Below, piece after piece: positions 25,496-40,562 of a stretch of DNA of 40,562 nt. The translations under genes were made by a program, and so were the position numbers. Under the pieces are notes generated by a model that saw only the letters and a list, made by a program, of their open reading frames with translations, made no database searches and was not told where the DNA came from. The stretch comes from Pirellulaceae bacterium (GTDB taxonomy: Bacteria > Planctomycetota > Planctomycetia > Pirellulales > Pirellulaceae): NCBI GenBank assembly GCA_030748485.1, contig JASMLW010000457.1, positions 1 to 40,562 on the forward strand. The letters are read 5' to 3'. Each line of letters opens with the position of its first letter. The stretch's first letter is position 1.

Positions 25496-27121
25496 TCACT
25501 GCGGCCGGCGTTCATCGAGCCACTCCTGCGTGGGCGCGCTGTCGGGATTCTGCTTCGCCCAGTCGGGAGTGGGAAACCACCGCAACCGACTGACGCGGGG
25601 GTAGGTTTCCCAAACATCGCCATTGCCGCTTGCGCGCGGATCGCCCGTCCGCCGCAACTCGCCCATCAACCGCTCATTCAACTGCCGCTTGACTCGCTCG
25701 TGGTCTTGATCGTCGGCCAGGTTCCTGAGGCATCCGCTGTCCGTGCGGATGTCGTACAGTTCTTCCGCCGGGCGTTTGGCGACCGAGAGATCGAGAAACG
25801 GTTTGATCTTTGGGTCGGCGCGGTTCGCGATGAGAAAGTCCAGAGTCGGGCAGGCGTCGATATCGTGAAAGCCTCCGTAGGGCGGGCCCAGTTTGGACGT
25901 GGCCAGCGATCCGTCGGCGTTGTACTTGGCGGACTGAAGTTTCTGGGCGGGGCCCGCCGGCCAGCGTTCCGGCTTGAAATTCCGGATGTACAAATAGTCT
26001 TGCGTGCGAATGCATCGTTGCGGATAGCTGAGCGAGTTGTAGCGCGACGACGAGTGCCGCTCGCGAGCCGAGTAGACGGCGTCGCGACGAGGGTCGACAA
26101 TCCCTGACTTGGAGGAAGTCAGCAGGTTGGCAATCCCGCGGCCGACCAGTTTCACGCCGGCTGGTCGGTCGACGCCCGTCGCATCGTAGATGGTCGCCGT
26201 CAAGTCGACAAAGCCAACCAGGTCGTCGACCGTGCGGCCAGCTCGCGCCTGGCCCCAACGAATGGCGAGCGGCATGTGGATGCCCCATTCGTAGCAGTTC
26301 GCTTTCGCTCGCGGAATCGGTATGCCGTTGTCGCTGGTCACAATGACCAGGGTGTTGTCGAGCTCTCCGGTTTGCTCGAGAAGTTTGAGGATCTTTCCCA
26401 AGTCATCATCAAACCGTTCAACTTCGAAGGCGTAGTCGAGCATATCGCCGCGGATTTCGGGAGTGTCGGGCAGGAACGCCGGCACTTCCGCGTCTGCGAG
26501 CCGTTTCCCTTTCTGCAGGCCTGACGCCTTGGCGTAGCCGCGGTGCGGGTCGCTGCTGCCGAACCAGAAACAGAACGGTTTGTCCGCCGGTCGCTGCCGC
26601 AGGAAGTTGGCGAATGCGCCGGCGTATCGGCCCATCCGCTTGTCGTCTTGACTGGCGGGCTGAAAGACGGGTCCGGCGGGGTTCGTCTGGCGGCCGAGTT
26701 TTCGCCAATTCCCGGGCCCCCACCCCTTCCCCGTGTAGCCGACGTAGTAGCCGCCGCGGGTGAGTTGGTCGGGAAACGTCGCGAACCGCTGGTCGAAATA
26801 GCTGGCGTGCGTTCCGGCGTGCTCCAGTTGCCAGGTGTGCAGTCCCGTCAGAAATGACGCCCGCGACGGGCTGCAGCCAGGCGACGGTGAGAAGGCGTTG
26901 GTGAACAGGACTCCCTCGCGAGCCACGCGATCAAAGTTTGGCGTCTTCACCATTTTCGACCCGTAGGCGGAGGCGTGCGGCCACGACTGGTCGTCGCTGA
27001 TCGCGATCAGGACGTTGGGAGATCGGTCGTCCGCGGCGGTTCGCCGGCCAGTCGCGGCGACGGCAACGACGCTGACGGCGGCAACGAAGAAGACAAAGCA
27101 GTGGGGCTTGAGAGTCTGCAT
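25496..27121 (-). CDS. Sulfatase of the heparan N-sulfatase-like type, secreted
   Basis: The 541-residue protein hydrolyses a sulfate ester or sulfamate after activation of the Cys in C-x-P-x-R (CSPSRASFLTGLH) to formylglycine. An N-terminal signal peptide is visible (FFVAAVSVVAVAATG). Metal-binding Asp residues are in ISDDQSW and TSDNGIP. The segments GKGWGPGNW and FWFGSSDPHRGY resemble human N-sulfoglucosamine sulfohydrolase more than other sulfatases, by my recollection. It needs a separate FGE maturase, not seen here. It is divergent from the Gfo/Idh gene. Confidence 0.9.
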   Translation of the reverse strand: MQTLKPHCFVFFVAAVSVVAVAATGRRTAADDRSPNVLIAISDDQSWPHASAYGSKMVKTPNFDRVAREGVLFTNAFSPSPGCSPSRASFLTGLHTWQLEHAGTHASYFDQRFATFPDQLTRGGYYVGYTGKGWGPGNWRKLGRQTNPAGPVFQPASQDDKRMGRYAGAFANFLRQRPADKPFCFWFGSSDPHRGYAKASGLQKGKRLADAEVPAFLPDTPEIRGDMLDYAFEVERFDDDLGKILKLLEQTGELDNTLVIVTSDNGIPIPRAKANCYEWGIHMPLAIRWGQARAGRTVDDLVGFVDLTATIYDATGVDRPAGVKLVGRGIANLLTSSKSGIVDPRRDAVYSARERHSSSRYNSLSYPQRCIRTQDYLYIRNFKPERWPAGPAQKLQSAKYNADGSLATSKLGPPYGGFHDIDACPTLDFLIANRADPKIKPFLDLSVAKRPAEELYDIRTDSGCLRNLADDQDHERVKRQLNERLMGELRRTGDPRASGNGDVWETYPRVSRLRWFPTPDWAKQNPDSAPTQEWLDERRPQ

Positions 27122-27358
27122 CGGGTGCTCGCAAAATCATGGTGAGTGTGGCGTTCAGCGTTGGGGCGTTGTTGGCGCGGCAGTGGCGCGGCGGCAACTT
27201 GCTGGTCGCTGGCGAATCGCTATTCTAACCTGCGTGCGACAGGCAATGTCCATTCGCCCGATGTCCACGCGCCCGGTGACCGCCGCCCGGTCCGCCGGTG
27301 TTGTTCGATCTGCTACACTTGGCCGTTTCGCACCGTTCGACTCACCCAGCGTATTCCG

Positions 27359-28672
27359 ATGAACACCAGCACTCGCAAGATTAACGTCGCCATCATTGGC
27401 GGCGGCATGTTCTTTGACGACATCATTGGCCAGAGCTTCAAGGACTTCATGCGTGGAGGTATCGCCGGAGCGCTGACCAGCATCGGCATGAGTCATCTGG
27501 CTGCCGATGTCGCCGACGTGAGCATCGACGTCTCCGCCATTGGAACTCGCAGCGAGCGGAGCGGTACGGCGGGACGGATCGTCGACTGGTTCGCGGAGGA
27601 ATTCCCCGAGAAGCCCATCGAAGCTTGCTATGGCGAGACGGTGTGGCGCGACATCATCGCCAAACATCAACCGGATGTCTTGTTCGTGGCCACGCCGGAC
27701 AACGTACACACGCAGCCTATCCTCGACGCGCTCGACGCCGGCTGCGATGTGATTACCGAGAAGCCACTCTGTCTGACCACGGCCGAAGCCGATCAAATCA
27801 TTCAAAAAGCGCGAGACGCCGATCGAGTTGTCGCGGTCGATATGCACAAGCGGTTCGATCCGTTCGTTCGCGATATGATGTTGAACGCCAATCAGAAATA
27901 TGGTGAGATCAATCGGGTCCGGGCGGTTCTGGAAGAGCCGCTTGAAGTCGCCACGGAGATCTTCGCCTGGGCGGAAGAGAGCAATCCGTTTACTTATGTC
28001 GGTTGCCATTGGCTGGATGTCGTGCACCACTATCTCCAGGTCAAGCCGCGGGCGGTGTTCGCCACCGGGCAAAAGAACCTCCTGCTTCATTGGGACGAGC
28101 ATCATGTCGAGATCGCCCGCCGTCAGGGAGTCGATCCGACGTCGTTTAAACGGCAACACTCGATCAACACTTGGGACAGCATCGACGTAGCGGTCACGTA
28201 CGACAACGGCATGCGCGGCGACTACAACAACAATTGGATAAATCCGGCGGAGTTCGAAGGCGCTGTCAATCAGGAGATCGAGCTTTACGGAATCTATGGT
28301 CGCGGTTTGGTCGACCAGCAGGATCGCGGGTTTCGAGAAGCTGTCATCGGAGACGGCTCGCGAACTCGCAACCCGTCATTCGGGGGACGGATTCGGCACT
28401 GCGGCGGCGAGCTGGAGTTGTTCGGCTACGGCAAGGCGTCGATCGCTTCCGGGCTGTTGGCGGCGATTCGGCGGCGGCTGGGCGGCGAGCCGCTCGCGTC
28501 GCTCGACGATACTTATCCGACGGCCGCCAGCCAGCGCGACGTCGTGCAAGTCATTGAAGCCGTCGCTCTGGTGGCCGAGAAAAACTACGAGCACTTTGTC
28601 GCCGGTCGGGGAACACCCGTAACGGCTCGCCTTACCGATACCGACATCGAGGTGATCGATCCCGGCCAATAG
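27359..28672 (+). CDS. Gfo/Idh/MocA-family oxidoreductase
   Basis: The start is the ATG at 27359, since the upstream frame is Arg/Cys-rich and unlike protein. The 437-residue protein has an N-terminal Rossmann fold (VAIIGGGMFFDDIIG) and the family motif EKPLCLT, with MHKRFDPF beyond it, then a C-terminal alpha/beta domain. Members use NAD(P) to oxidise or reduce sugars and related alcohols. It is predicted cytosolic because no signal peptide is seen. An extended -10-like TGCTACACT lies at 27311-27319. Its neighbours, two sulfatases, suggest a sugar from a sulfated polymer. Confidence 0.87.
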   Translation: MNTSTRKINVAIIGGGMFFDDIIGQSFKDFMRGGIAGALTSIGMSHLAADVADVSIDVSAIGTRSERSGTAGRIVDWFAEEFPEKPIEACYGETVWRDIIAKHQPDVLFVATPDNVHTQPILDALDAGCDVITEKPLCLTTAEADQIIQKARDADRVVAVDMHKRFDPFVRDMMLNANQKYGEINRVRAVLEEPLEVATEIFAWAEESNPFTYVGCHWLDVVHHYLQVKPRAVFATGQKNLLLHWDEHHVEIARRQGVDPTSFKRQHSINTWDSIDVAVTYDNGMRGDYNNNWINPAEFEGAVNQEIELYGIYGRGLVDQQDRGFREAVIGDGSRTRNPSFGGRIRHCGGELELFGYGKASIASGLLAAIRRRLGGEPLASLDDTYPTAASQRDVVQVIEAVALVAEKNYEHFVAGRGTPVTARLTDTDIEVIDPGQ

Positions 28673-28790: not shown

Positions 28791-31700
28791 ATGAATGCGA
28801 CTCGGATTCGACAGTTCGTTTTGGTCGTCTCGGCGATGCTCGTCACGGTTGCAAACTCGCCGGTCGTCGGCGCCGAGAGACCGAACGTCGTGGTGATCAT
28901 GACCGACAATCACGGCGCCTGGACGCTGGGGTGCTACGGGAACGACGAGATACGTTCACCCAACATCGATCGACTCGCTCGTGAGGGAACGCTCTTTACG
29001 CGGGCGTTCGCGTGCAATCCGGTCTGCTCTCCGACGCGCGCTTCATTCCTGACGGGGTTGATGCCGTCGCAGCATGGCGTGCACTGTTTTCTGTCGGCGA
29101 ATCGTCTGCAGTTAGGCCCGCAAGCCCGATCGACGATGGCCGAGTTTCAAACGTTGCCCGAGATTCTGAAGGCGGCCGGTTACTCGTGCGGGCTCGTCGG
29201 GAAATGGCACCTCGGCGACAACCTCCGGCCACAAGAGGGTTTCGACGACTACTGGATCACCATGCCGCACGGCGGGACGAGTACGTTCTACGATGCGGCG
29301 ATCATCGAGAACGGCAAGGTGCGAAAGGAGCCGGAGTACCTGACGGACTTTTGGACGCGGCACGCGGTCAACTTCATCGACGCCCACGCTGCGAAAGAGC
29401 AGCCGTTCTTTTTGTTTCTATCCTACAACGGGCCCTACGCGCTCAGCCGATTGTTGCTCAAGGAGGGCAAGAACCGGCACGCCGAGTACTACCGCGACAA
29501 GCCGCTCGAGTCGTTTCCTCGCGAGCCCGCACATCCATGGCAGTACAACAACCTGGATTTCCACAACAACCCCACTTCGATTCGTCGCGTCGCCACCGAG
29601 GTCAGCGGCGTCGACGATGGAGTTGGTCGAGTGCTCGATTCTCTACAGCGGCATGGAGTCGACGACAAGACGATTGTTCTGTTCCTGGCCGACCAGGGTT
29701 GGGTCGGCGGACACGGCGGGTTTTTCGGTATGGGCGACCACACTCGCCCCGTGACGGCTCGCGACGGCATGATGCGAATTCCGATGATCTGGCGCTTTCC
29801 GTCGAAGATCGCCGCCGGACGTCGGACAGATGCAATGGCCGCCAATTACGATTGCCTGCCGACGCTGCTCGCCCAACTCGGTTTGTCCGATCAGGCACCG
29901 GCCGCCAGGTTGCCCGGGCGCGACCTTTCCGCCGACTTGGACGCGCGGACGACTTCGAACGCAGCGAGTACTGACCGGCCGATCTTCTACGAGTTCGAAG
30001 AACTGCGGTGTGTGCGGACAGGGAAATGGAAGTACGTCCACCGGCACCCCAACGGACCGCACGAGTTGTACAACTTGACGGACGATCCGGATGAGCGGGT
30101 GAATTTGGTTGGGATCGCCGGACAGCAGGCGACGCGACGCCGGCTAAAGCTACAGCTCGACGAGTTCTTTGGCAAACATCGAAACGCCAAGTACGACCTG
30201 TGGAGCGGCGGCGGATCGCAGACGAGGTTGTTCGTCGGAATTGACGAAGAGCTAGCGCAGGAGCCGCCGGCGCCTCCGCCTCCGTTGGCGGCGGGATTCA
30301 CGCCCGTTCGGTTGCGGACACCGGAGGGGTTTGTCGCGGAGTTGGCGGCTGGACCGCCCTTGGTTGCTCACCCCACGATGGCCTGCCTGGATGATCGCGG
30401 TCGCTTGTTTGTCGCCGAGAACGCCGGGGTGAACATGAGCGCTCAGGAGTTGGAAAAGGAATTGCCCAACTCAGTGCGAATGCTCGAAGACACGGATGGG
30501 GACGGCCGTTACGATCGCTCGACCGTGTTCGCCGACCGCATGACGTTTCCGATGGGTGGCGTCTGGAAGGATGGCGCGCTCTTTGTCGCCTCGCCGCCGA
30601 ACATCTGGCGGCTGGAGGATACGGATGGAGATCGAGTCGCCGACAAGCGGGAAGTGATTGTTGACAAGTTTGGGTACACCGGAAACGCGGCGAGCGTGCA
30701 CGGCTGTTTCGCCGGGCCCGATGGCCGAATCTACTGGTGCGACGGCCGCCACGGTCACGAATTCCGCGACGAGCAAGGGAAGATCACCAGCAAACTGGCC
30801 GGCTCATACATTTTCAGTTGTCTGCCGGACGGTTCGGATGTGCGTATCCATTGTGGCGGCGGCATGGACAATCCGGTGGAAATCGATTTCACGGACGAGG
30901 GCGACGTCATCGGCACGGTCAACATCATGTACACGCGTCCCCGGGTCGATTGCCTCGTCCATTGGCAGCACGGCGGCGCCTATCCGCACAGTGAGCGCGT
31001 GCTCGGTGAATTTCGCCACACGGGCGGTCTGCTCGGACCGATCCACCGCTTCGGCCACGTGGCGATTTCCGGCGTGACTCGCTACCGCAGCGGCGTTCTC
31101 GATCATCAGTTCCAGAACAATATGTTTGCGGCCATGTTTAACAGTGGCCGCGTCGTCAGGCTGGCGCTGCAACGAAGCGGGTCGACGTACGCGGTGACCG
31201 AGCGCGAGTTCGTGTCGTCAGCGAACCGAGACTTTCATCCGACGGATGTTCTGGAAGACGCCGACGGCAGCCTGTTGATTGTCGATACCGGTGGCTGGTT
31301 CTACCGAGGCTGCCCGACATCGCAATTGTCTAAGCCGGACGTACTCGGCGGGATCTATCGCGTGCGTCGGCGCGGCATGACGGCGCAGATCGATCCGCTC
31401 GGTAAACAGATCGCCTGGGATGCGCTTTCCCAGGGGCGACTGATCGCACTCTTAAACGACACTCGCCACGAGGTCCGCGCGCGGGCGATCGAGGCTTGTG
31501 GGCGACAAGGCGTTGCGTTTACGTCGGTGTTGATGACTGCGTTGAGACGGCGCGACGTCCGGCACCGTCTCGGAGCGGTTTGGGCCTTGTCGCAAATGGC
31601 CGGTCGCCAGCCGCGCGACCTATCGGCCAAGTCGCCCGAGTTTTCGGCGATCCGCGCCGCGTTGACGCCGGCGCTGGCCGACTTCAATCCGAGCGTAAAG

Positions 31701-33314
31701 CAGGCCGCCTGCCGAGTCATGGCGACCTATCCGCGGACGGCCGATCGCGGGCGTTTGGAGGCCGTCTTGAAAACAGGGGAACCGCAAGTCCGCCGCGAAG
31801 CGGCGAAAGCGCTCGGCCGGTACGGCGACGTTCGCAGCGTGCCAGTGATCCTGGCGGCGTTAGAGGGAGCTGTCGACCGCGCCGAGGAACACGCGTTGAT
31901 TTACGCCGCGATCGAGATCGGCGACATAGCGGCTCTGCAGGTAGGGCTAACGAACCGGGCGCCGGCCGTGCGACGCGGTGCGTTGATTGCCGTCGATCAA
32001 ATCGATGGGCGACAGTTGAAGCCCGCCGATGTTGCTCGCGCCATCAGGTCGGAAGACGTTCGACTCCGCCAGACCGCCTTGGGAATCCTCGTGAAGCATC
32101 CCGAATGGAGCGAGCTGGCGGCGCGGGCGATACAAAACTGGTTGGCCGCTGGTGATTCGACGTCGCACCCCGATGCGGCCCAACTGATCGTTGCCTTCAT
32201 TGCCGATGACAGCGTTCGCGGCGAAGTCGGCCGGCAACTTTCGGTGGGTGGAGCCGCCGAGACGACGGTGCTCGACGCATTGGCGAAAGTGAGCAATGCG
32301 GCGCCGCACGCATCGTGGAGCCAACCGCTCAGCGCTGCGCTGCGGAGCGAATCGACGGATCGATTGCGGGTGGCGGTGGCGGCGGTGGCGCGAATGAAAA
32401 CCAAGCAGTTCGACGACGATCTGAGACGGATCGCCGGCGACGGCGCCCGGCCCGGACTGCTGAGGGTCGCCGCTCTGCGGGCGATTGCGCGAAGCGGTCG
32501 CCCCACGGACGACGCCTTTCAACTGACGGTCGGACTGCTCGCGACCGGGGACGCCCGCGAGGCCGCCGAAGCCGCGCAGCTGCTCGGCGGCGCCGCCTTG
32601 TCGAATGACCAGCTGGTTGAGTTGGCGAGCCGATTGCCGACTGCGGGTCCGTTGCAATTGCGAGACCTTCTCCGCGCATACGGACGCAGTCGAGACGCCG
32701 GTGTGACCGCCGCGTTTTTGCATAACTTGGAGCAAACCCCGGCGTTTTTGTCGTTGCCGACGCACGAGTTTTCAGACGTGATCAAACGCTACCCGGACAA
32801 GGCGCGGGAGCGGGCGAATCGCCTGCTGGAGAAGCTGAAAGCTCAAGACGACGAACGCTTGGCCAAGCTCGATCGCTTACTCCCCCTGCTGCAAACTGGC
32901 GATCCCGTTCGCGGTGAGCAGATTTTCCACCAAGAGAAATCCAAGTGCGCCGTCTGCCATCGAGTTGGCGAGCGCGGTGGGCGAAGCGGTCCCGAATTGT
33001 CGACCATCGGCCGCAATCGATCCCCGCGAGATCTGCTCGAATCGATTGTCTTTCCCTCTTCCAGTCTGGTCCGGGGCTACGAACCTTACTCGGTGCAGAC
33101 GGGGGATGGTCGAGTTTTGGCGGGCGTGATCACCCGCGAGACCGACACGGAGATTGTGTTGCAGCAACAAGTCGGCGATCCGCTGACGCTGCGTCGCGAC
33201 GACATCGAGGTCCTGCAACAGTCGACCGTTTCGATCATGCCGCGCGGATTGGACATGGCGCTGACGGAACAGCAATTGGCCGACGTGATCGCCTGGTTGA
33301 TGACCAAACAGTAG
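28791..33314 (+). CDS. Fusion of sulfatase, PVC-type dehydrogenase propeller, HEAT-like repeats and heme c domain
   Basis: This is a secreted 1507-residue multidomain protein. Residues 1-28 are a signal peptide. Residues 30 to about 475 are a sulfatase with the formylglycine motif C79-S-P-T-R83 and the active-site stretch GKWHLGDN. A proline-rich linker lies near 490. Residues about 500-880 match the Pirellula/Verrucomicrobium-type membrane-bound dehydrogenase domain, a beta-propeller with repeated EDTDGD segments (MLEDTDGDGRYD, LEDTDGDRVADK). Residues about 880-1350 are HEAT-like helical repeats. The C-terminus is the PVC-type heme-binding domain with C1386-A-V-C-H1390 and RSGPELSTIG. Each part alone is usual in planctomycetes; having all in one chain is not. 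No stop or frame change is seen between them, so it reads as one gene. Coupled sulfate release and oxidation of a sugar is an inference. Confidence 0.85.
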   Translation: MNATRIRQFVLVVSAMLVTVANSPVVGAERPNVVVIMTDNHGAWTLGCYGNDEIRSPNIDRLAREGTLFTRAFACNPVCSPTRASFLTGLMPSQHGVHCFLSANRLQLGPQARSTMAEFQTLPEILKAAGYSCGLVGKWHLGDNLRPQEGFDDYWITMPHGGTSTFYDAAIIENGKVRKEPEYLTDFWTRHAVNFIDAHAAKEQPFFLFLSYNGPYALSRLLLKEGKNRHAEYYRDKPLESFPREPAHPWQYNNLDFHNNPTSIRRVATEVSGVDDGVGRVLDSLQRHGVDDKTIVLFLADQGWVGGHGGFFGMGDHTRPVTARDGMMRIPMIWRFPSKIAAGRRTDAMAANYDCLPTLLAQLGLSDQAPAARLPGRDLSADLDARTTSNAASTDRPIFYEFEELRCVRTGKWKYVHRHPNGPHELYNLTDDPDERVNLVGIAGQQATRRRLKLQLDEFFGKHRNAKYDLWSGGGSQTRLFVGIDEELAQEPPAPPPPLAAGFTPVRLRTPEGFVAELAAGPPLVAHPTMACLDDRGRLFVAENAGVNMSAQELEKELPNSVRMLEDTDGDGRYDRSTVFADRMTFPMGGVWKDGALFVASPPNIWRLEDTDGDRVADKREVIVDKFGYTGNAASVHGCFAGPDGRIYWCDGRHGHEFRDEQGKITSKLAGSYIFSCLPDGSDVRIHCGGGMDNPVEIDFTDEGDVIGTVNIMYTRPRVDCLVHWQHGGAYPHSERVLGEFRHTGGLLGPIHRFGHVAISGVTRYRSGVLDHQFQNNMFAAMFNSGRVVRLALQRSGSTYAVTEREFVSSANRDFHPTDVLEDADGSLLIVDTGGWFYRGCPTSQLSKPDVLGGIYRVRRRGMTAQIDPLGKQIAWDALSQGRLIALLNDTRHEVRARAIEACGRQGVAFTSVLMTALRRRDVRHRLGAVWALSQMAGRQPRDLSAKSPEFSAIRAALTPALADFNPSVKQAACRVMATYPRTADRGRLEAVLKTGEPQVRREAAKALGRYGDVRSVPVILAALEGAVDRAEEHALIYAAIEIGDIAALQVGLTNRAPAVRRGALIAVDQIDGRQLKPADVARAIRSEDVRLRQTALGILVKHPEWSELAARAIQNWLAAGDSTSHPDAAQLIVAFIADDSVRGEVGRQLSVGGAAETTVLDALAKVSNAAPHASWSQPLSAALRSESTDRLRVAVAAVARMKTKQFDDDLRRIAGDGARPGLLRVAALRAIARSGRPTDDAFQLTVGLLATGDAREAAEAAQLLGGAALSNDQLVELASRLPTAGPLQLRDLLRAYGRSRDAGVTAAFLHNLEQTPAFLSLPTHEFSDVIKRYPDKARERANRLLEKLKAQDDERLAKLDRLLPLLQTGDPVRGEQIFHQEKSKCAVCHRVGERGGRSGPELSTIGRNRSPRDLLESIVFPSSSLVRGYEPYSVQTGDGRVLAGVITRETDTEIVLQQQVGDPLTLRRDDIEVLQQSTVSIMPRGLDMALTEQQLADVIAWLMTKQ

Positions 33315-33357: not shown

Positions 33358-35514
33358 CTAACGCGGCTTCAGCTTGTCGTAGTTGTCGTCAAAGACTTTG
33401 ATGAGGTCGCCGAGTTTGGCTCCGTCGGCCGCCGCGTCCTTCCACCAATTGCGAGCTTTCACCAGATCGCTGTCTTTCCGCCGCTTGTGCACCAACACGT
33501 AGGCCCCCTTGAGCACTTTGGATGAAGGCGCCCCTTGATCGAGCGAACGGTCGGCGATCGCCACGGCCAGCCCCGGCGGCATGTCGTTAAACAAATACCG
33601 ACGATTCGTTCCGGCGACGCGGAGGACGATGTGCTCAAAACCGCGTTCCACGACCGCGACTTCCGTGCTCTCGCCAACCCGAAAGACCGCTCCGCTCTCG
33701 AAACTGGCCGCTCCGTCTCGCAGCGCCTTGTGGAAGTCCTTCACGTAGCCACCCACGTCGTTCAGCCGCTCAACCATTTCCTTGTGCTTGTCCAACTTGG
33801 CGGCGTTGCGAGCCAAGGTGATCTGCTTCGCCCCGTCGGCAAACGAGCCCTCGCCGAAGGCCGCACTGGCTGTCTTCAACGCTGTGGCTAGCGTCGCCAA
33901 CTCACCAGCTGTCGGGGGCGTTGGCGGCTTGTCAGGCGTCGGTGTGTCGGGCGAGCCAGGTGTGCCGGGAGTCGGTGTGCCGGGAGTCGGAGCGCCGGGA
34001 GTCGGTGTGTCCGGTGAGCCAGTTGTGTCGGGAGTTGCCGTGTCGGGCGAGGAGGGATTCTTCGGAGTGCTGGGCGTCTTTGGGGATTCGGGAACTCCAC
34101 CCGGAACGGTTGAGGTTTTCGATCCGCCCGCCGGCGAGGAGGAGGAGCCTGCTGTTGACGGAGTTGTCGGTGCGTCGGGGCTCGTCGGGGGAGCTGCGTT
34201 CGACTGCCCCGTCGTTCCGTTGCCGTCGTTGGCCGCGTCGATTCGTTTGGGCGGGGTTGACGGTTCGTTGGGAACGGCGACTGGACCGCCCGAGTCGGGG
34301 TCGCCTTCAGCCGTCTGTTTGTCGCGCGTGACGCCCCAATAGAGCGCCCCGACGATGGAGCCGATCAGCAACAGGCCGACGATCACCGACAAAGCAACGA
34401 GGCGCCCGCGGCTTCGCCGCTCAACGACCATCTCCTTGGCGGACTTTGCCTTTCCGACCGCGACTTCGCCGCCCGCGGCCGCGGCGACCGGCGTTGTGAC
34501 TGCTGCCGCAGCTGCGACCGGTGTCGCTTGCATCGCGCTCGGCTGACCGACGGGGACCGCTTGAGGCACACCGACGGCAGCCACAGGTGTGGCTCCGGGC
34601 GACCCGTAGTTGGAAGCGGGCGAATAGGGCGCAGCCGCCGGGCCGCTGGTGGGAACGGCGGGAGTGGCCGGTTGGGTGGGAACGGGAGCCAGCGGGTCGC
34701 CGAGCGGCACGCCGGTTTGCGGCTGGCCGGGCTGAGCCATTTCGGGAGGCATCGCCGGTTGCGCTTCGAGTCTCGTCGCCGGTTGCGCGATGGGCGAGAC
34801 AGGCGCCGAGCCCGGCGGCGTCGGCGAAGCCGCAGTGGGAGCGCTCTGGCCCATCGCGGTGCTCGGCGGTTGATTTGGATCGACGGGGGCGGCACCGGGT
34901 GTCGTCGGTGGAAAACCAGCGGCGGACGGCGCCACCGGGGCCGGATTCGAAGGAGCCATCCGGCTTGGCGGTGTGGTTGCCGAAGCGCTGGGTGACGTGG
35001 CCGAACTCGTCGATTCCGGTGAGATTGGTGCAGGCGAGCTGCTTGGTGAGAACATCCCCGGCGGGTACTTGTTGACCATCTCATCCACATCGGGACTCTG
35101 GGTCTCGACCATCATCTCGATGTGGTCGGGGTCCGTCGTTTGAATCGGCGCCGAGACGGTCGGGACGGGTGTTGGCTCGGTGTGGTCGATGGGGGCCGGT
35201 TGACTCGGCGCGTCCGCCCGTGCCGCAGCTGGACCGCCGGAGCCGCTTGAGCGGAGCTTCTCGTCGTAACTCGCCCTGGCCGCGGCGTCCGTCAGGGTCG
35301 CCTTGGCGGCGGTGATTTCGTCCAGCAATTGAGCCCATTGTTGAGCGTGTTCGCCCGGTCGTTGCGAGCGCACCGTGGCTGCAGCCCGATCGACGGCCAT
35401 ACGCAATTGTTCCTCATCGGCACAAAAGTCCTCGACGCCCACGAGCTGGTAGCAACTCGGCTGAGTTATCGATGCATCCAATCCGAGCCATTCGTGATAG
35501 GGATTGAAGGTCAC
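33358..35514 (-). CDS. DnaJ-like, proline-rich single-pass membrane protein
   Basis: The start is put at the GTG at 35514 (GGAG 5 nt before), giving MTFNPYHEWLGLD, the opening familiar from planctomycete membrane proteins. An upstream ATG at 35571 overlaps the -10 box and is rejected. The 718-residue product has a J-like helical N-terminus (residues 1-90, ending in TDAAARASYDEKL). A long Pro/Ala/Ser-rich region follows (about 100-360), then a membrane segment (about 372-396, ALSVIVGLLLIGSIVGALYWG). A second Pro/Thr-rich region carries short PTPG-type repeats, and a C-terminal folded domain runs from about 540. The function is unknown; an envelope sensor or scaffold is possible. Confidence 0.75.
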   Translation of the reverse strand: MTFNPYHEWLGLDASITQPSCYQLVGVEDFCADEEQLRMAVDRAAATVRSQRPGEHAQQWAQLLDEITAAKATLTDAAARASYDEKLRSSGSGGPAAARADAPSQPAPIDHTEPTPVPTVSAPIQTTDPDHIEMMVETQSPDVDEMVNKYPPGMFSPSSSPAPISPESTSSATSPSASATTPPSRMAPSNPAPVAPSAAGFPPTTPGAAPVDPNQPPSTAMGQSAPTAASPTPPGSAPVSPIAQPATRLEAQPAMPPEMAQPGQPQTGVPLGDPLAPVPTQPATPAVPTSGPAAAPYSPASNYGSPGATPVAAVGVPQAVPVGQPSAMQATPVAAAAAVTTPVAAAAGGEVAVGKAKSAKEMVVERRSRGRLVALSVIVGLLLIGSIVGALYWGVTRDKQTAEGDPDSGGPVAVPNEPSTPPKRIDAANDGNGTTGQSNAAPPTSPDAPTTPSTAGSSSSPAGGSKTSTVPGGVPESPKTPSTPKNPSSPDTATPDTTGSPDTPTPGAPTPGTPTPGTPGSPDTPTPDKPPTPPTAGELATLATALKTASAAFGEGSFADGAKQITLARNAAKLDKHKEMVERLNDVGGYVKDFHKALRDGAASFESGAVFRVGESTEVAVVERGFEHIVLRVAGTNRRYLFNDMPPGLAVAIADRSLDQGAPSSKVLKGAYVLVHKRRKDSDLVKARNWWKDAAADGAKLGDLIKVFDDNYDKLKPR
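33940..34040 (+). repeat. 15-bp tandem repeats inside the DnaJ-like gene
   Basis: Near-identical copies of GGTGTGCCGGGAGTC and close variants encode short Pro/Thr/Gly repeats (TPTPG type) of the extracytoplasmic linker. Such tracts change length by slippage. Confidence 0.6.
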
Positions 35515-35569
35515 AGCGACTCCGAGCCAAGTGGTTAAAGGTGGGGGAGAAAGGCCGAATTGTCTGTTC

Positions 35570-35597
35570 ATTGTAAAAGCGGGTCGTGGGCGGACAA
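35570..35597 (-). promoter_or_regulatory. Promoter of the DnaJ-like gene
   Basis: The minus strand has -35 TTGTCC (35592-35597), a 16-bp spacer and -10 TACAAT (35570-35575, five of six). The predicted leader to the GTG at 35514 is about 49 nt, which supports that start. Confidence 0.5.
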
Positions 35598-35760
35598 GGC
35601 GAATCGCCCGCCCTCTCAATCAAAAGACGCGTCGAGACGTCGATTTGATTCCCCAATTCGGTCGCTGGCCGCAAATTTCGGCGGACCTCGAAACGTTGCC
35701 CCCCAGGTCGTCGTCTGACTATTGACGTTGATTTCTGTTCTGCAGCCGACGTCATCCCCT

Positions 35761-35861: not shown

Positions 35862-38800
35862 ATGTTGCGGAAGCGCCATTTCACGATCACCGCGATCACC
35901 TTGCTGGCTATTGCCGGATTGCTGCGTTCGCAGCAGATCAATCCGAGCGAACTGCGCCGCCAGGCGGACAAGAAGTTTAGCGATGGCAACTACAAGGAGG
36001 CGCTGACCGACTACCGCACGATCTGTCTCCACAAAGACGATCTCGGTCAAAACGCGCAGCACATCGTTTCTCGGTCGGTGCAGTCGCTGCAGAATCTCGG
36101 CAAGCTCGAGCAAATCGACGAGTTGCTCGAATCAACCGTGAAGGCTCACCCCGAACACTGGCAGGTATTGCAGGCCGTGGCGACGTCGTACCGGTCGATA
36201 CCCCATCAGGGACAATTGGTGGCGGGCGAGTTTCAGCGCGGCTACGGCCGGCGGCGGCAAGGCGTCCCCGTCGAGACGATTGACCGCGACCGGGTGCGCG
36301 CACTGCAGCTGCTGATGACGGCCGAAAAACTGGTTCTCAAGACCGAGAACGCCGACCAGATCAGCGGCTTCTACCTGCAGCTTGCCCGCAGTTTTCGCGA
36401 CTTCTATGGATCCCGGGAATCCTGGCGACTGCAGCTGCTTACCGACCTGGAGCAGCTACCGGACCCGGTCAAAGGGTATCCGCGTTTTCGCGCCGACAGC
36501 CACGCGCCCGTCGACGAGGAAGGCCAACCTGTATTTTTCGAGATTCCAGATGATTGGGCCGCCGCGAAGACGGACGGCGAGCGTTGGCGTTGGGCGCTCG
36601 CGCAGGCCGTTGAGCACAAGCCGTCCGCCGCGGACCAAGCTGAGTGGCTACGGGCGGACTTCCTGTACAACCAGTTCGGCGTGCACTCGATGCAACGCTT
36701 CTTTCAGCCGTGGATGCTCGAGCCCGATGGCGAAGACGAGCGAGATCGACGTTCGAACATTTACCAGCTTCACACGCTGACGGATGACGAGACGATTTGT
36801 CGTCTGGCCACCGGCATCCAGCGGTTGGAATTGCCGGAGGAGCACAACCACGTAGCGATCCTCAAGAAGCTCGCCGGCGGCAAGGGATTCGCTGAGACGG
36901 CCGTCAACCGGCTGGCCGAGGTCTACACGAACCGGCGTCAGTTCGATCGCGCCGCGGATCAGTGGCGCGCGAGCATCAAGAAGTTCGGGAACTCGAACTG
37001 GAAGAAGCAGCGGCTCGACCAGATCGTCAAGCCGTGGGGGCAGCTCGAGCCCGTGTTGGGGCAGCCCGCCGGCAAGGGTGCGACGATCGAGTACCGATTC
37101 CGCAACGGCAATCGGGTTGATTTCGAGGCGCAGCGAATCGACATCGCCCAACTGCTCGCCGACATCAAGACTTATCTGAAGTCGAGCCCGCAGCGGTTCG
37201 ATTGGTCGAAAGTGCAGTTGCAGAATATCGGTTGGCAACTGATCAACGGCAATCAGGCGAAATATGTCAAAGAGCGAACAGCGCAGTGGCGAGTGAAGCT
37301 GGATCCGGCCGACGTGCATTGGGATCGCCGCCGCACCGTGACGACGCCGCTTGAAGACAGCGGCGCCTATCTGGTGACCGCCAAGATGCGCGACGGCAAC
37401 ACGAGTCGCGCCGTCTTGTGGCTCAACGACACGGCGATCGTTCGCAAACCACTCCACAAGAAGAACCTCTACTTCGTGGCGGATGCGTCCAACGGCAAAC
37501 CGATCGCCGACGCCAACATGGAATTCTTCGGCTATCGAGTTCGCCGGGTCGGCAACGCGAAGCAGCAAGTCGACTCGACCAATTTCGCGAGGAAAACAGA
37601 TCACCTCGGTCGAGTGATGTTGGAGAGCGACAAAGAGCGGACCGCCTATCAATGGATGGTCGTGGCGCGAACGAAGCAGGGCCGCTTCGCCTATCTCGGC
37701 TTTCACGGCGTGTGGGTGCAGAACTACTACGACCAGGAGTACAACCAGGCGAAGGGATTCATCATCACCGATCGTCCGGTCTATCGGCCCGAACAGAAGG
37801 TGAAATTCAAGGGGTGGCTGCGGCACGCCAAGTACGACCAGGAAGGGTCGTCGTTCGCCAATCAGAACCAGCAGATCGAGATCCTCGATCCGAAGGGCAA
37901 GTCGGTCTACAAGAAGACGCTCAAGACGGATGCCTACGGCGGCGTCGACGGCGAGTTTGACGTTCCTGGAGACGCCACGTTGGGCGTTTACTCCGTGCGG
38001 CTCGTCGCCGTCGGGATGACGACGACGTTCCGAATTGAGGAGTACAAGAAGCCCGAGTTTGAGGTGACGATTGAGTCGCCCGAGAAGCCGGTCATGCTGG
38101 GTGAGAAGATCGAAGCTCGCGTCAACGCGCGGTACTACTTTGGCGCGCCGGTGACCAACGCGACCGCCAAGATCAAAGTCATGCGTCACGAGCACACGGC
38201 CCAATGGTATCCCTACGGCCCTTGGGACTGGTGTTTCGGTCCCGGCTATTGGTGGTACGCCTACGACTACCCCTGGTACCCGGGTTGGGAAAAATGGGTT
38301 GGCTGCCGACGGCCGTTCCCGTTCTGGTGGGGTCAATGGCCGCAGAATCCTCCCGAAGTAGTTTTGGAGATCGAACGCCCGATCGGGCCTGAGGGCGAAA
38401 TTGAGTTTGTCATCGACACATCCGTCGCCCAGGCGCTGCACGGCGACAAAGACCATCGCTACACGGTGACCGCCGAAGTTCGCGACGCCTCCCGCCGCAC
38501 GATCGTCGGTTCGGGCGAAGTCCTGGCGGCGCGGAAGCCGTTCCGCATCTATTCGTGGGTCCACCGCGGCTACTACCGCCAAGGCGAGACCGTGCGGGCT
38601 AATTTCCAAGCGTTCACGCTGGACAAGAAGCCCGTCAAGGGCCAGGGCGTCGTGCGATTGTTGAGTATCGAGTACGACGACGAGCGACAACCCAAAGAGA
38701 CGGAAGTCGGGAAATGGGACATCGCCTCGAACGAGGAAGGCGTCGCCGAACTGCAGATCAAAGCGACGCGAGCCGGACAGTTTCGACTGTCGTGTGAATT

Positions 38801-40562
38801 GACCGACGACGCCGGACATACGGTTGAAGGCGGCTACATCTTTCAAGTGGTCGGCGAAGGCGATGACGGCAAGGAATTCCGCTTCCAAGACATTGAGCTC
38901 ATTCCCGAGAAGCAAGAGTACGCGCCTGGAGAAGTTGTCCGACTGCAAGTCAACACCGACCGGGCCAACAGTACGGTGATGCTCTTTGTGCGACCGGCGA
39001 ACGGCGTCTATCTGCCGCCGCAGATCGTTCAAGTGAAAGGCCAGTCGTCGATCGTCGAGGTGGCGGTCGTCAAGCGGGATATGCCGAACTTCTTTGTCGA
39101 GGCAGTCACCGTGTCCGGCGGAAAAGTGCACACCGACGTGAAGGAGATTGTCGTACCGCCGGAATCCCGCGTCTTGAATGTGGAGGTGTTACCGGACGCG
39201 CAGGAATACCGCCCCGGCGCGCCGGCCAAAGTCAAACTTCACCTGACCGACCACACCGGTGAGAACTTTGTCGGTTCGACCGTCGTGACGGTCTACGACA
39301 AAGCGGTTGAGTACATTTCCGGCGGCACGAACATCTCGGATATCAAGGAGTTCTTCTGGAAGTGGCGACGTCGGCACCATCCCAACGCGATGCACAACCT
39401 GTCGCAGCGGGGTTCGCATATCCAAAAGTCAAACGAACCTCAAATGCAAACGCTCGGCGCCTTCGGCCACCTGCTGGTCGAACAGGAAGGACGCGCGGAA
39501 CTTCAGCGGGGAGCCGGTAGAGGCAGAGCCAACAAGATGATGGCGGCGAAGTCGGCTCCGGGCGGCGCCGTAGCGGAAACCGCGTCACTGGCCATCGCCG
39601 ACGAGGCGGTTGGCGGTGGATTCGCCGCCGATGCGTCCGACAAGGACTCCGGACAGGCCGCTGCCGGCGGCGGCTTTGTCGAACCGACAGTGCGAAAGAA
39701 CTTCGCTGACACCGCGCTGTGGACAGCCGCTCTGACAACCAACGATCAGGGGATCGCCGAAGTTTCACTTGAGATGCCGGAGTCCTTGACAACCTGGAAG
39801 GTGAAAGTTTGGGGGATGGGCCACGGGACGCGCGTCGGAGCCGGCGAGGCCGAAGTGATCACGCGCAAGAACTTCCTGTTGCGACTGCAAGCGCCCCGGT
39901 TCTTCGTTGAGAAGGATGAAGTCGTACTGTCCGCCGTCGTGCACAACTACCTGCCGAAGGAGAAGATCGCCGAAGTCGCCTTGCAGGTCGACCAGAGCCC
40001 GTTGACGATCGTGGGCGACGCCATTCAAACCGTCTCCATTCCGGCCGATGGTGAGACTCGCGTCAACTGGCGCGTGCGAGTCACCGGAGAAGGCGAAGCC
40101 GTCGTGCGGATGCTCGCCAAGACGGACGAAGAATCGGACGCGATGGAGATGAAGTTCCCGTCGTACGTCCACGGCATGCTCAAGATGGAAGCCTGGGCCG
40201 GCACGGTTCGTCCCGATGACGACAGCGCGAAGGTGACTGTCGAAGTGCCCGCCCAGCGGCGCGTCGAGGAGAGTTTGCTTGAAGTTCGCTATTCGCCAAC
40301 TCTGGCCGGCGCGATGGTCGACGCCCTGCCCTACCTGATTGAGTACCCGTACGGATGCACCGAGCAGACGCTGAATCGTTTTCTGCCGGCCGTCATCACT
40401 CAGAAAATGCTGCTCGAAATGAACCTCGATCTCGCGGAGATTCGTGAGAAGCGCAGTAATCTGAACGCGCAAGAGATCGGTGACGATGTCAAACGAGCCG
40501 CCCAGTGGAAACGCCGCTCCGATCACAATCCCGTTTTCGACCGCGAAGAGCTCGAGCGAGTC
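35862..40562 (+). CDS. Bacterial alpha-2-macroglobulin-like protein with thioester (runs off the window)
   Basis: The protein traps proteases in the envelope by a thioester and a bait region. The frame from the ATG at 35862 is open for 1567 codons to the window end; the usual length is 1,700-2,000. Residues 1-24 look like a signal or anchor segment (FTITAITLLAIAGLL). A TPR-like helical N-terminal region follows (ADKKFSDGNYKEALTDY). Macroglobulin domains start near residue 500, including TDRPVYRPEQKVKFKG (about 634), which is the MG2 type. An aromatic-rich insert lies at about 780-828. The alpha-2-macroglobulin domain follows (FADTALWTAALTTNDQG, about 1280). The thioester motif C1499-T-E-Q1502 lies in YPYGCTEQT. 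A Gly/Ala-rich stretch lies before 1270. It is divergent from the DnaJ-like gene. No pbpC partner is visible in the window. Confidence 0.9.
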   Translation, partial: MLRKRHFTITAITLLAIAGLLRSQQINPSELRRQADKKFSDGNYKEALTDYRTICLHKDDLGQNAQHIVSRSVQSLQNLGKLEQIDELLESTVKAHPEHWQVLQAVATSYRSIPHQGQLVAGEFQRGYGRRRQGVPVETIDRDRVRALQLLMTAEKLVLKTENADQISGFYLQLARSFRDFYGSRESWRLQLLTDLEQLPDPVKGYPRFRADSHAPVDEEGQPVFFEIPDDWAAAKTDGERWRWALAQAVEHKPSAADQAEWLRADFLYNQFGVHSMQRFFQPWMLEPDGEDERDRRSNIYQLHTLTDDETICRLATGIQRLELPEEHNHVAILKKLAGGKGFAETAVNRLAEVYTNRRQFDRAADQWRASIKKFGNSNWKKQRLDQIVKPWGQLEPVLGQPAGKGATIEYRFRNGNRVDFEAQRIDIAQLLADIKTYLKSSPQRFDWSKVQLQNIGWQLINGNQAKYVKERTAQWRVKLDPADVHWDRRRTVTTPLEDSGAYLVTAKMRDGNTSRAVLWLNDTAIVRKPLHKKNLYFVADASNGKPIADANMEFFGYRVRRVGNAKQQVDSTNFARKTDHLGRVMLESDKERTAYQWMVVARTKQGRFAYLGFHGVWVQNYYDQEYNQAKGFIITDRPVYRPEQKVKFKGWLRHAKYDQEGSSFANQNQQIEILDPKGKSVYKKTLKTDAYGGVDGEFDVPGDATLGVYSVRLVAVGMTTTFRIEEYKKPEFEVTIESPEKPVMLGEKIEARVNARYYFGAPVTNATAKIKVMRHEHTAQWYPYGPWDWCFGPGYWWYAYDYPWYPGWEKWVGCRRPFPFWWGQWPQNPPEVVLEIERPIGPEGEIEFVIDTSVAQALHGDKDHRYTVTAEVRDASRRTIVGSGEVLAARKPFRIYSWVHRGYYRQGETVRANFQAFTLDKKPVKGQGVVRLLSIEYDDERQPKETEVGKWDIASNEEGVAELQIKATRAGQFRLSCELTDDAGHTVEGGYIFQVVGEGDDGKEFRFQDIELIPEKQEYAPGEVVRLQVNTDRANSTVMLFVRPANGVYLPPQIVQVKGQSSIVEVAVVKRDMPNFFVEAVTVSGGKVHTDVKEIVVPPESRVLNVEVLPDAQEYRPGAPAKVKLHLTDHTGENFVGSTVVTVYDKAVEYISGGTNISDIKEFFWKWRRRHHPNAMHNLSQRGSHIQKSNEPQMQTLGAFGHLLVEQEGRAELQRGAGRGRANKMMAAKSAPGGAVAETASLAIADEAVGGGFAADASDKDSGQAAAGGGFVEPTVRKNFADTALWTAALTTNDQGIAEVSLEMPESLTTWKVKVWGMGHGTRVGAGEAEVITRKNFLLRLQAPRFFVEKDEVVLSAVVHNYLPKEKIAEVALQVDQSPLTIVGDAIQTVSIPADGETRVNWRVRVTGEGEAVVRMLAKTDEESDAMEMKFPSYVHGMLKMEAWAGTVRPDDDSAKVTVEVPAQRRVEESLLEVRYSPTLAGAMVDALPYLIEYPYGCTEQTLNRFLPAVITQKMLLEMNLDLAEIREKRSNLNAQEIGDDVKRAAQWKRRSDHNPVFDREELERV

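Follow-up and report, generated by a model that had tools for sequence, protein, structure and literature searches.

PVC-type heme-binding CxxCH proteins (Planctomycete-specific cytochrome proteins) combine a TIGR02604 propeller with HEAT repeats and a TIGR02603 heme c domain, and the papers found describe no activity of a TIGR02604 protein. Sulfatase genes adjoin such cytochrome genes in freshwater Verrucomicrobia (PMC5615132). Multi-domain sulfatases, including ones with HEAT_2, were noted in two Porphyra-associated planctomycetes in a 2016 genome paper (PMC4807772), which mentions neither a heme domain nor a TIGR02604 propeller in connection with them, the architecture not being its subject. 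The heme domain has a described counterpart in the anammox protein Kustd1711 (7zs0), a diheme cytochrome c with His/Met ligation, whose potentials lie near +350 mV and whose distal ligand Met292 was confirmed by experiment (PMC11791136).

Here we describe a planctomycete gene in which, unlike in the PVC-type proteins, a complete sulfatase is fused ahead of the propeller. Both halves belong to known families; their joint architecture is new in the literature searched, which left most subscription papers outside its reach and in which the full architecture is undescribed. The HEAT_2 sulfatases of the Porphyra-associated strains, which likewise carry extra domains including HEAT_2, are probably proteins of this kind.

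Architecture and relatives of the fused protein

The window, i.e. the whole stretch of 40,562 nt that was analyzed, contains one intact frame at 28791–33314 on the plus strand, whose translation gives 1507 aa without internal stop (Table 1). It had been claimed from the sequence that a sulfatase motif and a heme motif lie in this single uninterrupted frame, which was borne out, both motifs being found exactly where expected. The Sulfatase, TIGR02604, HEAT_2 and TIGR02603 models all matched, in the predicted order. In Pfam we found Sulfatase at residues 31–364 (154 bits, cut-off 25), SGSH_C at 327–458, DUF7133 at 508–832 (2e-41) and HEAT_2 at 957–1032 (8e-17); in NCBIfam, TIGR02604 matched at 513–859 (174 bits against a curated cut-off of 122) and TIGR02603 at 1370–1505 (curated cut-off 68). 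The protein thus shares with the PVC-type proteins a six-bladed propeller and HEAT repeats followed by a CxxCH heme domain, above both NCBIfam cut-offs, and its nearest standalone PVC orthologs are 70–76% identical over the propeller.

Table 1. Features of the fusion protein (feature, position in the window, strand, basis)
Predicted Sec signal peptide, residues 1–28, MNATRIRQFVLVVSAMLVTVANSPVVGA	28791..28874	+	by eye from translation
S1-type sulfatase domain, residues 29–470	28875..30200	+	PF00884 7e-45, PF16347 8e-10; best PDB matches are S1 sulfatases
C79-S-P-T-R83 formylglycine motif	29025..29039	+	Cys and Arg invariant in clade
N213-G-P-Y216 segment (canonical ...APH, His replaced by Tyr216)	29427..29438	+	alignment to 9hh3 and 5g2v; invariant in clade
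M314-G-D-H-T-R-P320 (canonical Lys replaced by Met314)	29730..29750	+	alignment to 5g2v; Met314 invariant in clade
Sulfatase-propeller linker, residues 471–505, fusion junction	30201..30305	+	in frame and conserved in fused orthologs
TIGR02604/DUF7133 propeller, PQQ sugar dehydrogenase-like fold, residues 506–865	30306..31385	+	domain models, structure, profiles
His637, motif equivalent of GSDH catalytic His	30699..30701	+	invariant in fused set; 90/105 in wider family
Asp693 in GGGMDNP, at the PQQ-contacting Arg position of the GSDH 'RN' motif	30867..30869	+	profile-profile alignment; invariant in fused set
HEAT-repeat solenoid, residues 880–1360	31428..32870	+	PF13646; all-helical in model
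TIGR02603 heme c domain, residues 1366–1507	32886..33311	+	NCBIfam 109 bits; Kustd1711 (7zs0) 2.2e-23
C1386-A-V-C-H1390, heme c attachment motif and proximal His	32946..32960	+	translation, alignments
Met1483, predicted distal heme ligand; counterpart of Kustd1711 Met292 in the alignment	33237..33239	+	invariant

With the junction (residues 250–720) as query and each genome counted once, in-frame fused orthologs were found in at least 27 other genomes, belonging to many genera of Pirellulaceae, to other planctomycetes and to Verrucomicrobiota. The fusion is present in at least 19 of 199 Pirellulaceae genomes, including the source genome with its one fused copy; these genome counts are lower bounds, 4–8 candidates having been scored per genome, and among the 19 one fusion is split over two contigs (G077) and one stops early near a contig end (G026). 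A scan of genome contigs gave one further Rubripirellula and six Verrucomicrobiota fusions, and a phylum-wide sample two fused planctomycetes from another family of the same class. One candidate for a second fusion type (L099) was rejected: its frame extends upstream of the real start, which accounts for the long N-terminus. The frame across 30200–30320, which we checked through orthologs instead of raw reads, holds: in the fused orthologs of 25 other genomes the linker (SQTRLFVGIDEELAQ...PPPL..GF.P) can be aligned without loss of frame, and two more genomes were added later. An assembly error or frameshift merging two adjacent genes is therefore extremely improbable, and we consider it ruled out; the source assembly is a slightly contaminated draft (96% complete, 6% contamination), but the gene is fused in frame in other assemblies as well, some of them consisting of a single contig (e.g. 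G178, G147, G137, G055 and G006). Divergence of one half is matched by divergence of the other (r = 0.94 for sulfatase against propeller distances), and the sulfatase half retains 55–72% identity from Planctomycetota to Verrucomicrobiota.

Proposed function and genomic surroundings

The architecture is best explained as a PVC scaffold with a divergent formylglycine sulfatase in front, the scaffold being made up of a propeller resembling PQQ dehydrogenases, a HEAT solenoid and a cytochrome c domain with His/Met ligands. On balance we lean towards an exported, probably periplasmic, modular enzyme that would both desulfate and oxidize sulfated sugars. The sulfatase would take the sulfate ester off a (poly)saccharide fragment, the propeller would oxidize a sugar hydroxyl of the same fragment, plausibly to a lactone or a 3-keto sugar, and the electrons would go to the C-terminal heme c and then to the respiratory chain. 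Desulfation followed by oxidation of the exposed sugar, with electrons passed to the protein's own heme, had been put forward in the original prediction and would be the most economical mechanism. It is backed by the fold, by the His/Met heme ligands and by other PVC fusions in the genome; it is complicated by Tyr216 and Met314 in the sulfatase clade and by Asp693 in the propeller.

The immediate surroundings are a Gfo/Idh/MocA oxidoreductase gene upstream (27146–28669, plus strand), preceded by a gene for another S1 sulfatase (25499–27121, minus strand). Downstream in the window, the frames at 33361–35619 (753 aa) and 36651–39131 (827 aa), both on the minus strand, gave no Pfam or NCBIfam match. 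The neighborhood of fused copies mostly differs between genera and for this reason gave no substrate. Parts of the query match the 8.7 Mb source genome at 213 places, most of which are sulfatases or PVC heme proteins.

About 26 TIGR02604 genes of the source genome score above the cut-off. The partners of the PVC module in this genome are ThuA, GDSL esterases, NPCBM, PA14 with cupredoxin, a 3-keto-disaccharide hydrolase with FG-GAP, a ceramidase and a GH2-type sugar-binding domain; a fusion to an aldose 1-epimerase is a weaker DUF7133 match. PVC fusions of the source genome were recorded at L194, L195, L196, L197, L198, L200, L201, L202, L203 and L206 (contigs C474, C304, C204, C574, C516, C334, C394, C595, C459 and C398). 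Two GSDH (PQQ-type) proteins of the same genome carry an N-terminal 3-keto-disaccharide hydrolase (L188:673-2556, plus strand; L189:247-2313, minus strand); to this hydrolase family belong BT2157, which acts on 3-ketotrehalose, and a protein proposed to hydrolyze 3'-ketolactose (PMC9007349). The set of PVC fusions looks like a modular sugar-oxidation system, and from the sugar-processing partners in the same genome the PVC module appears to behave as a chassis for such domains. It is mainly these partners, together with the adjacency of sulfatase and cytochrome genes, that lead us to propose desulfation combined with sugar oxidation.

Origin of the fusion

The fused sequences of planctomycetes group together in the sulfatase tree as a single clade (SH-aLRT 97), whose sister is made up of the planctomycete standalone sulfatases, and the verrucomicrobial fused sequences fall outside both planctomycete groups. 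Fused and unfused sequences interleave in the propeller tree, a quick tree with SH-aLRT values only, where one planctomycete fused clade was rejected (AU p = 5e-34); a single recent fusion was thereby discarded. Both trees would be explained most simply if a single ancient fusion had later been lost or split several times; less economical would be a transfer from one phylum to another, or independent fusions that each joined these two partners through the same linker. From the trees, the fusion seems to have preceded the separate forms, which would derive from it by loss or fission. It had been assumed that the parts are usually separate genes; standalone orthologs of both halves indeed exist, but so do the fused ones of the 27 other genomes, and the fused form appears to have come first. 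The fused loci L135 and L060 and the unfused loci L067, L113–L115 and L117 have downstream neighbors in common, and L135 and L067 share the upstream neighbor as well, so that they differ in the sulfatase half; this synteny supports a change in place. The locus is conserved in several Pirellulaceae, with a dimethylformamidase beta-subunit-like gene (PF20254; L060:11802-13307 and relatives) after the fused or unfused gene.

No genome in the Pirellulaceae sample was found to hold a fused copy together with a separate ortholog of either half, and in at least nine genomes of this sample the halves are encoded by two genes that lie on different contigs. Among the fusion-free genomes, those with the standalone sulfatase tend to have a standalone ortholog of the PVC half too (odds ratio 4.2, p = 0.005, kinship ignored). 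One member of the Verrucomicrobiota (G546) has a fused and a separate sulfatase copy. Many genomes keep the propeller without the sulfatase, hence the two steps are not always coupled. The repeated loss or splitting off of the sulfatase half, as seen in the AU test and in L135 and L060 (fused) against L067, L115 and L117 (unfused), and the genomes with unlinked halves would fit a fusion that serves the co-targeting or co-regulation of two independent enzymes, which act on different molecules or bonds and for which the covalent link is dispensable. We regard this as rather unlikely, since the junction and the linker have stayed in frame across the deep divergence between Planctomycetota and Verrucomicrobiota.

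Sulfatase, propeller and heme sites

Residue conservation was read from an alignment of 26 rows, invariance being stated wherever a row reaches. Canonical S1 sulfatases have a His in the APH segment and a Lys before a variable loop, residues whose roles are established. With S1 formylglycine sulfatases (7stt, GALNS-like; 9hh3, S1_19; 5g2v, N-acetylglucosamine-6-sulfatase) the fused protein has in common the PF00884 fold, the C/S-x-P-x-R nucleophile motif, present as C79SPTR83, and most metal and Lys/His active-site residues. It differs from them in Asn40 and Gln302 at metal positions, in being joined to an oxidoreductase and in having Tyr216 and Met314 for the usual His and Lys. Both substitutions are visible directly against the crystal-structure sequences and occur in the whole clade, fused or standalone, among the members examined. 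Asp39, Asn40, Cys79, Arg83, Lys138, His140, Asp301 and Gln302 are invariant. The source genome has 17–18 FGE-family matches, 17 of them above the cut-off, and these proteins are predicted to be available to mature Cys79. A model of residues 26–880, built from nine fused rows, was too poor (mean pLDDT 68) to show how sulfatase and propeller are placed relative to each other.

Because the canonical His and Lys are replaced, the sulfatase may have been modified, or its target may be a different ester. One form of this idea, a non-classical domain that cleaves an anionic ester of another type or binds sulfated glycan and turns it over slowly at best, would account for the invariance of Tyr216 and Met314 throughout the clade. 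We nevertheless think it unlikely: Cys79 within CxPxR, the metal ligands Asp39 and Asp301, Lys138 and His140 are all invariant, which argues for catalysis, and His317/Arg319 beside Met314 could substitute. Two further members of the clade deserve mention. L180:1533-4478 (plus strand) encodes a protein of 981 aa with two sulfatase domains, the second in the same Tyr/Met clade, which resembles a double sulfatase reported previously (PMC4807772). L183:2840-4783 (minus strand) encodes a standalone clade sulfatase in which an unassigned C-terminal domain of ~150 residues replaces the PVC module.

For the propeller-HEAT-heme part (residues 490–1507) the model was good (mean pLDDT 87.5, pTM 0.83). 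When this model was compared with known structures by VIA-align, the top 16 matches were PQQ sugar dehydrogenases (Z 28.0–31.0), with 3a9g as the best one (Z 31.0, rmsd 2.7 over 295 residues), and lactonase-like propellers came next (Z 23.9 and lower). A sequence search of the propeller against the PDB gave nothing beyond a chance-like sigma-1 receptor match. In the hhalign profile comparison, homology with the GSDH proteins of the source genome was found with 97.8% probability (E 7e-13), a match obtained with a wide profile. The propeller thus shares its fold and the catalytic His motif with PQQ sugar and aldose dehydrogenases (GSDH; 3a9g, sGDH 1qbi/1c9u, AA12 pyranose dehydrogenase 6jt5), at low sequence identity (14–17%). 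The motif is represented by His637; gaps in the profile alignment lie only a few residues from it. Asp693-Asn694 fall on the GSDH Arg-Asn motif, and His637, Asp693 and Asn694 are invariant in the fused set; the PQQ-contacting Arg is accordingly absent from this set, as it is from most related PVC propellers of the source genome, which makes PQQ binding doubtful. A pqqC model had no match in 25 genomes, nor in any control, and pqqE gave no match above the cut-off, as in the controls. Judged from the model and the alignments, fold and catalytic His motif point to a sugar dehydrogenase, but the PQQ site appears altered. The replacement of this Arg by Asp693, and the fact that lactonases and SMP30 have the same six-bladed fold (Z about 23), could also be taken to indicate a binding, lactonase-like or metal-site domain, with the heme used for redox sensing or partner docking. 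Such a role appears improbable to us, as PQQ dehydrogenases are clearly ahead of the lactonases in the structural comparison and the catalytic His motif is kept.

At the C-terminus, Cys1386, Cys1389, His1390 and Met1483 are invariant, and both the CxxCH and the distal Met of the Kustd1711-type domain are present. The fused protein shares with Kustd1711 this type of heme c domain, and differs from it in that a single heme domain ends a long enzyme.

Returning to the coupled desulfation and oxidation of sugars favored above, a more detailed version can be offered tentatively, as a possibility. A re-modelled sulfatase may feed a PQQ-fold propeller that uses a non-PQQ cofactor and the protein's own heme, and the protein may be one of a series of modular planctomycete hydrolase fusions on a common oxidoreductase-cytochrome chassis, in which the hydrolases unblock or cleave sugars.

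The old, conserved and repeatedly lost join points to the function of a large uncharacterized planctomycete protein family. The conserved covalent link to a sulfatase, and the related fusions in which the partner is a 3-keto-disaccharide hydrolase, ThuA, an aldose epimerase or an esterase, lead to a direct and testable hypothesis, namely that these proteins oxidize sugars during the degradation of decorated glycans and are linked to the respiratory chain. If true, this would also explain why sulfatase genes adjoin such cytochrome genes.
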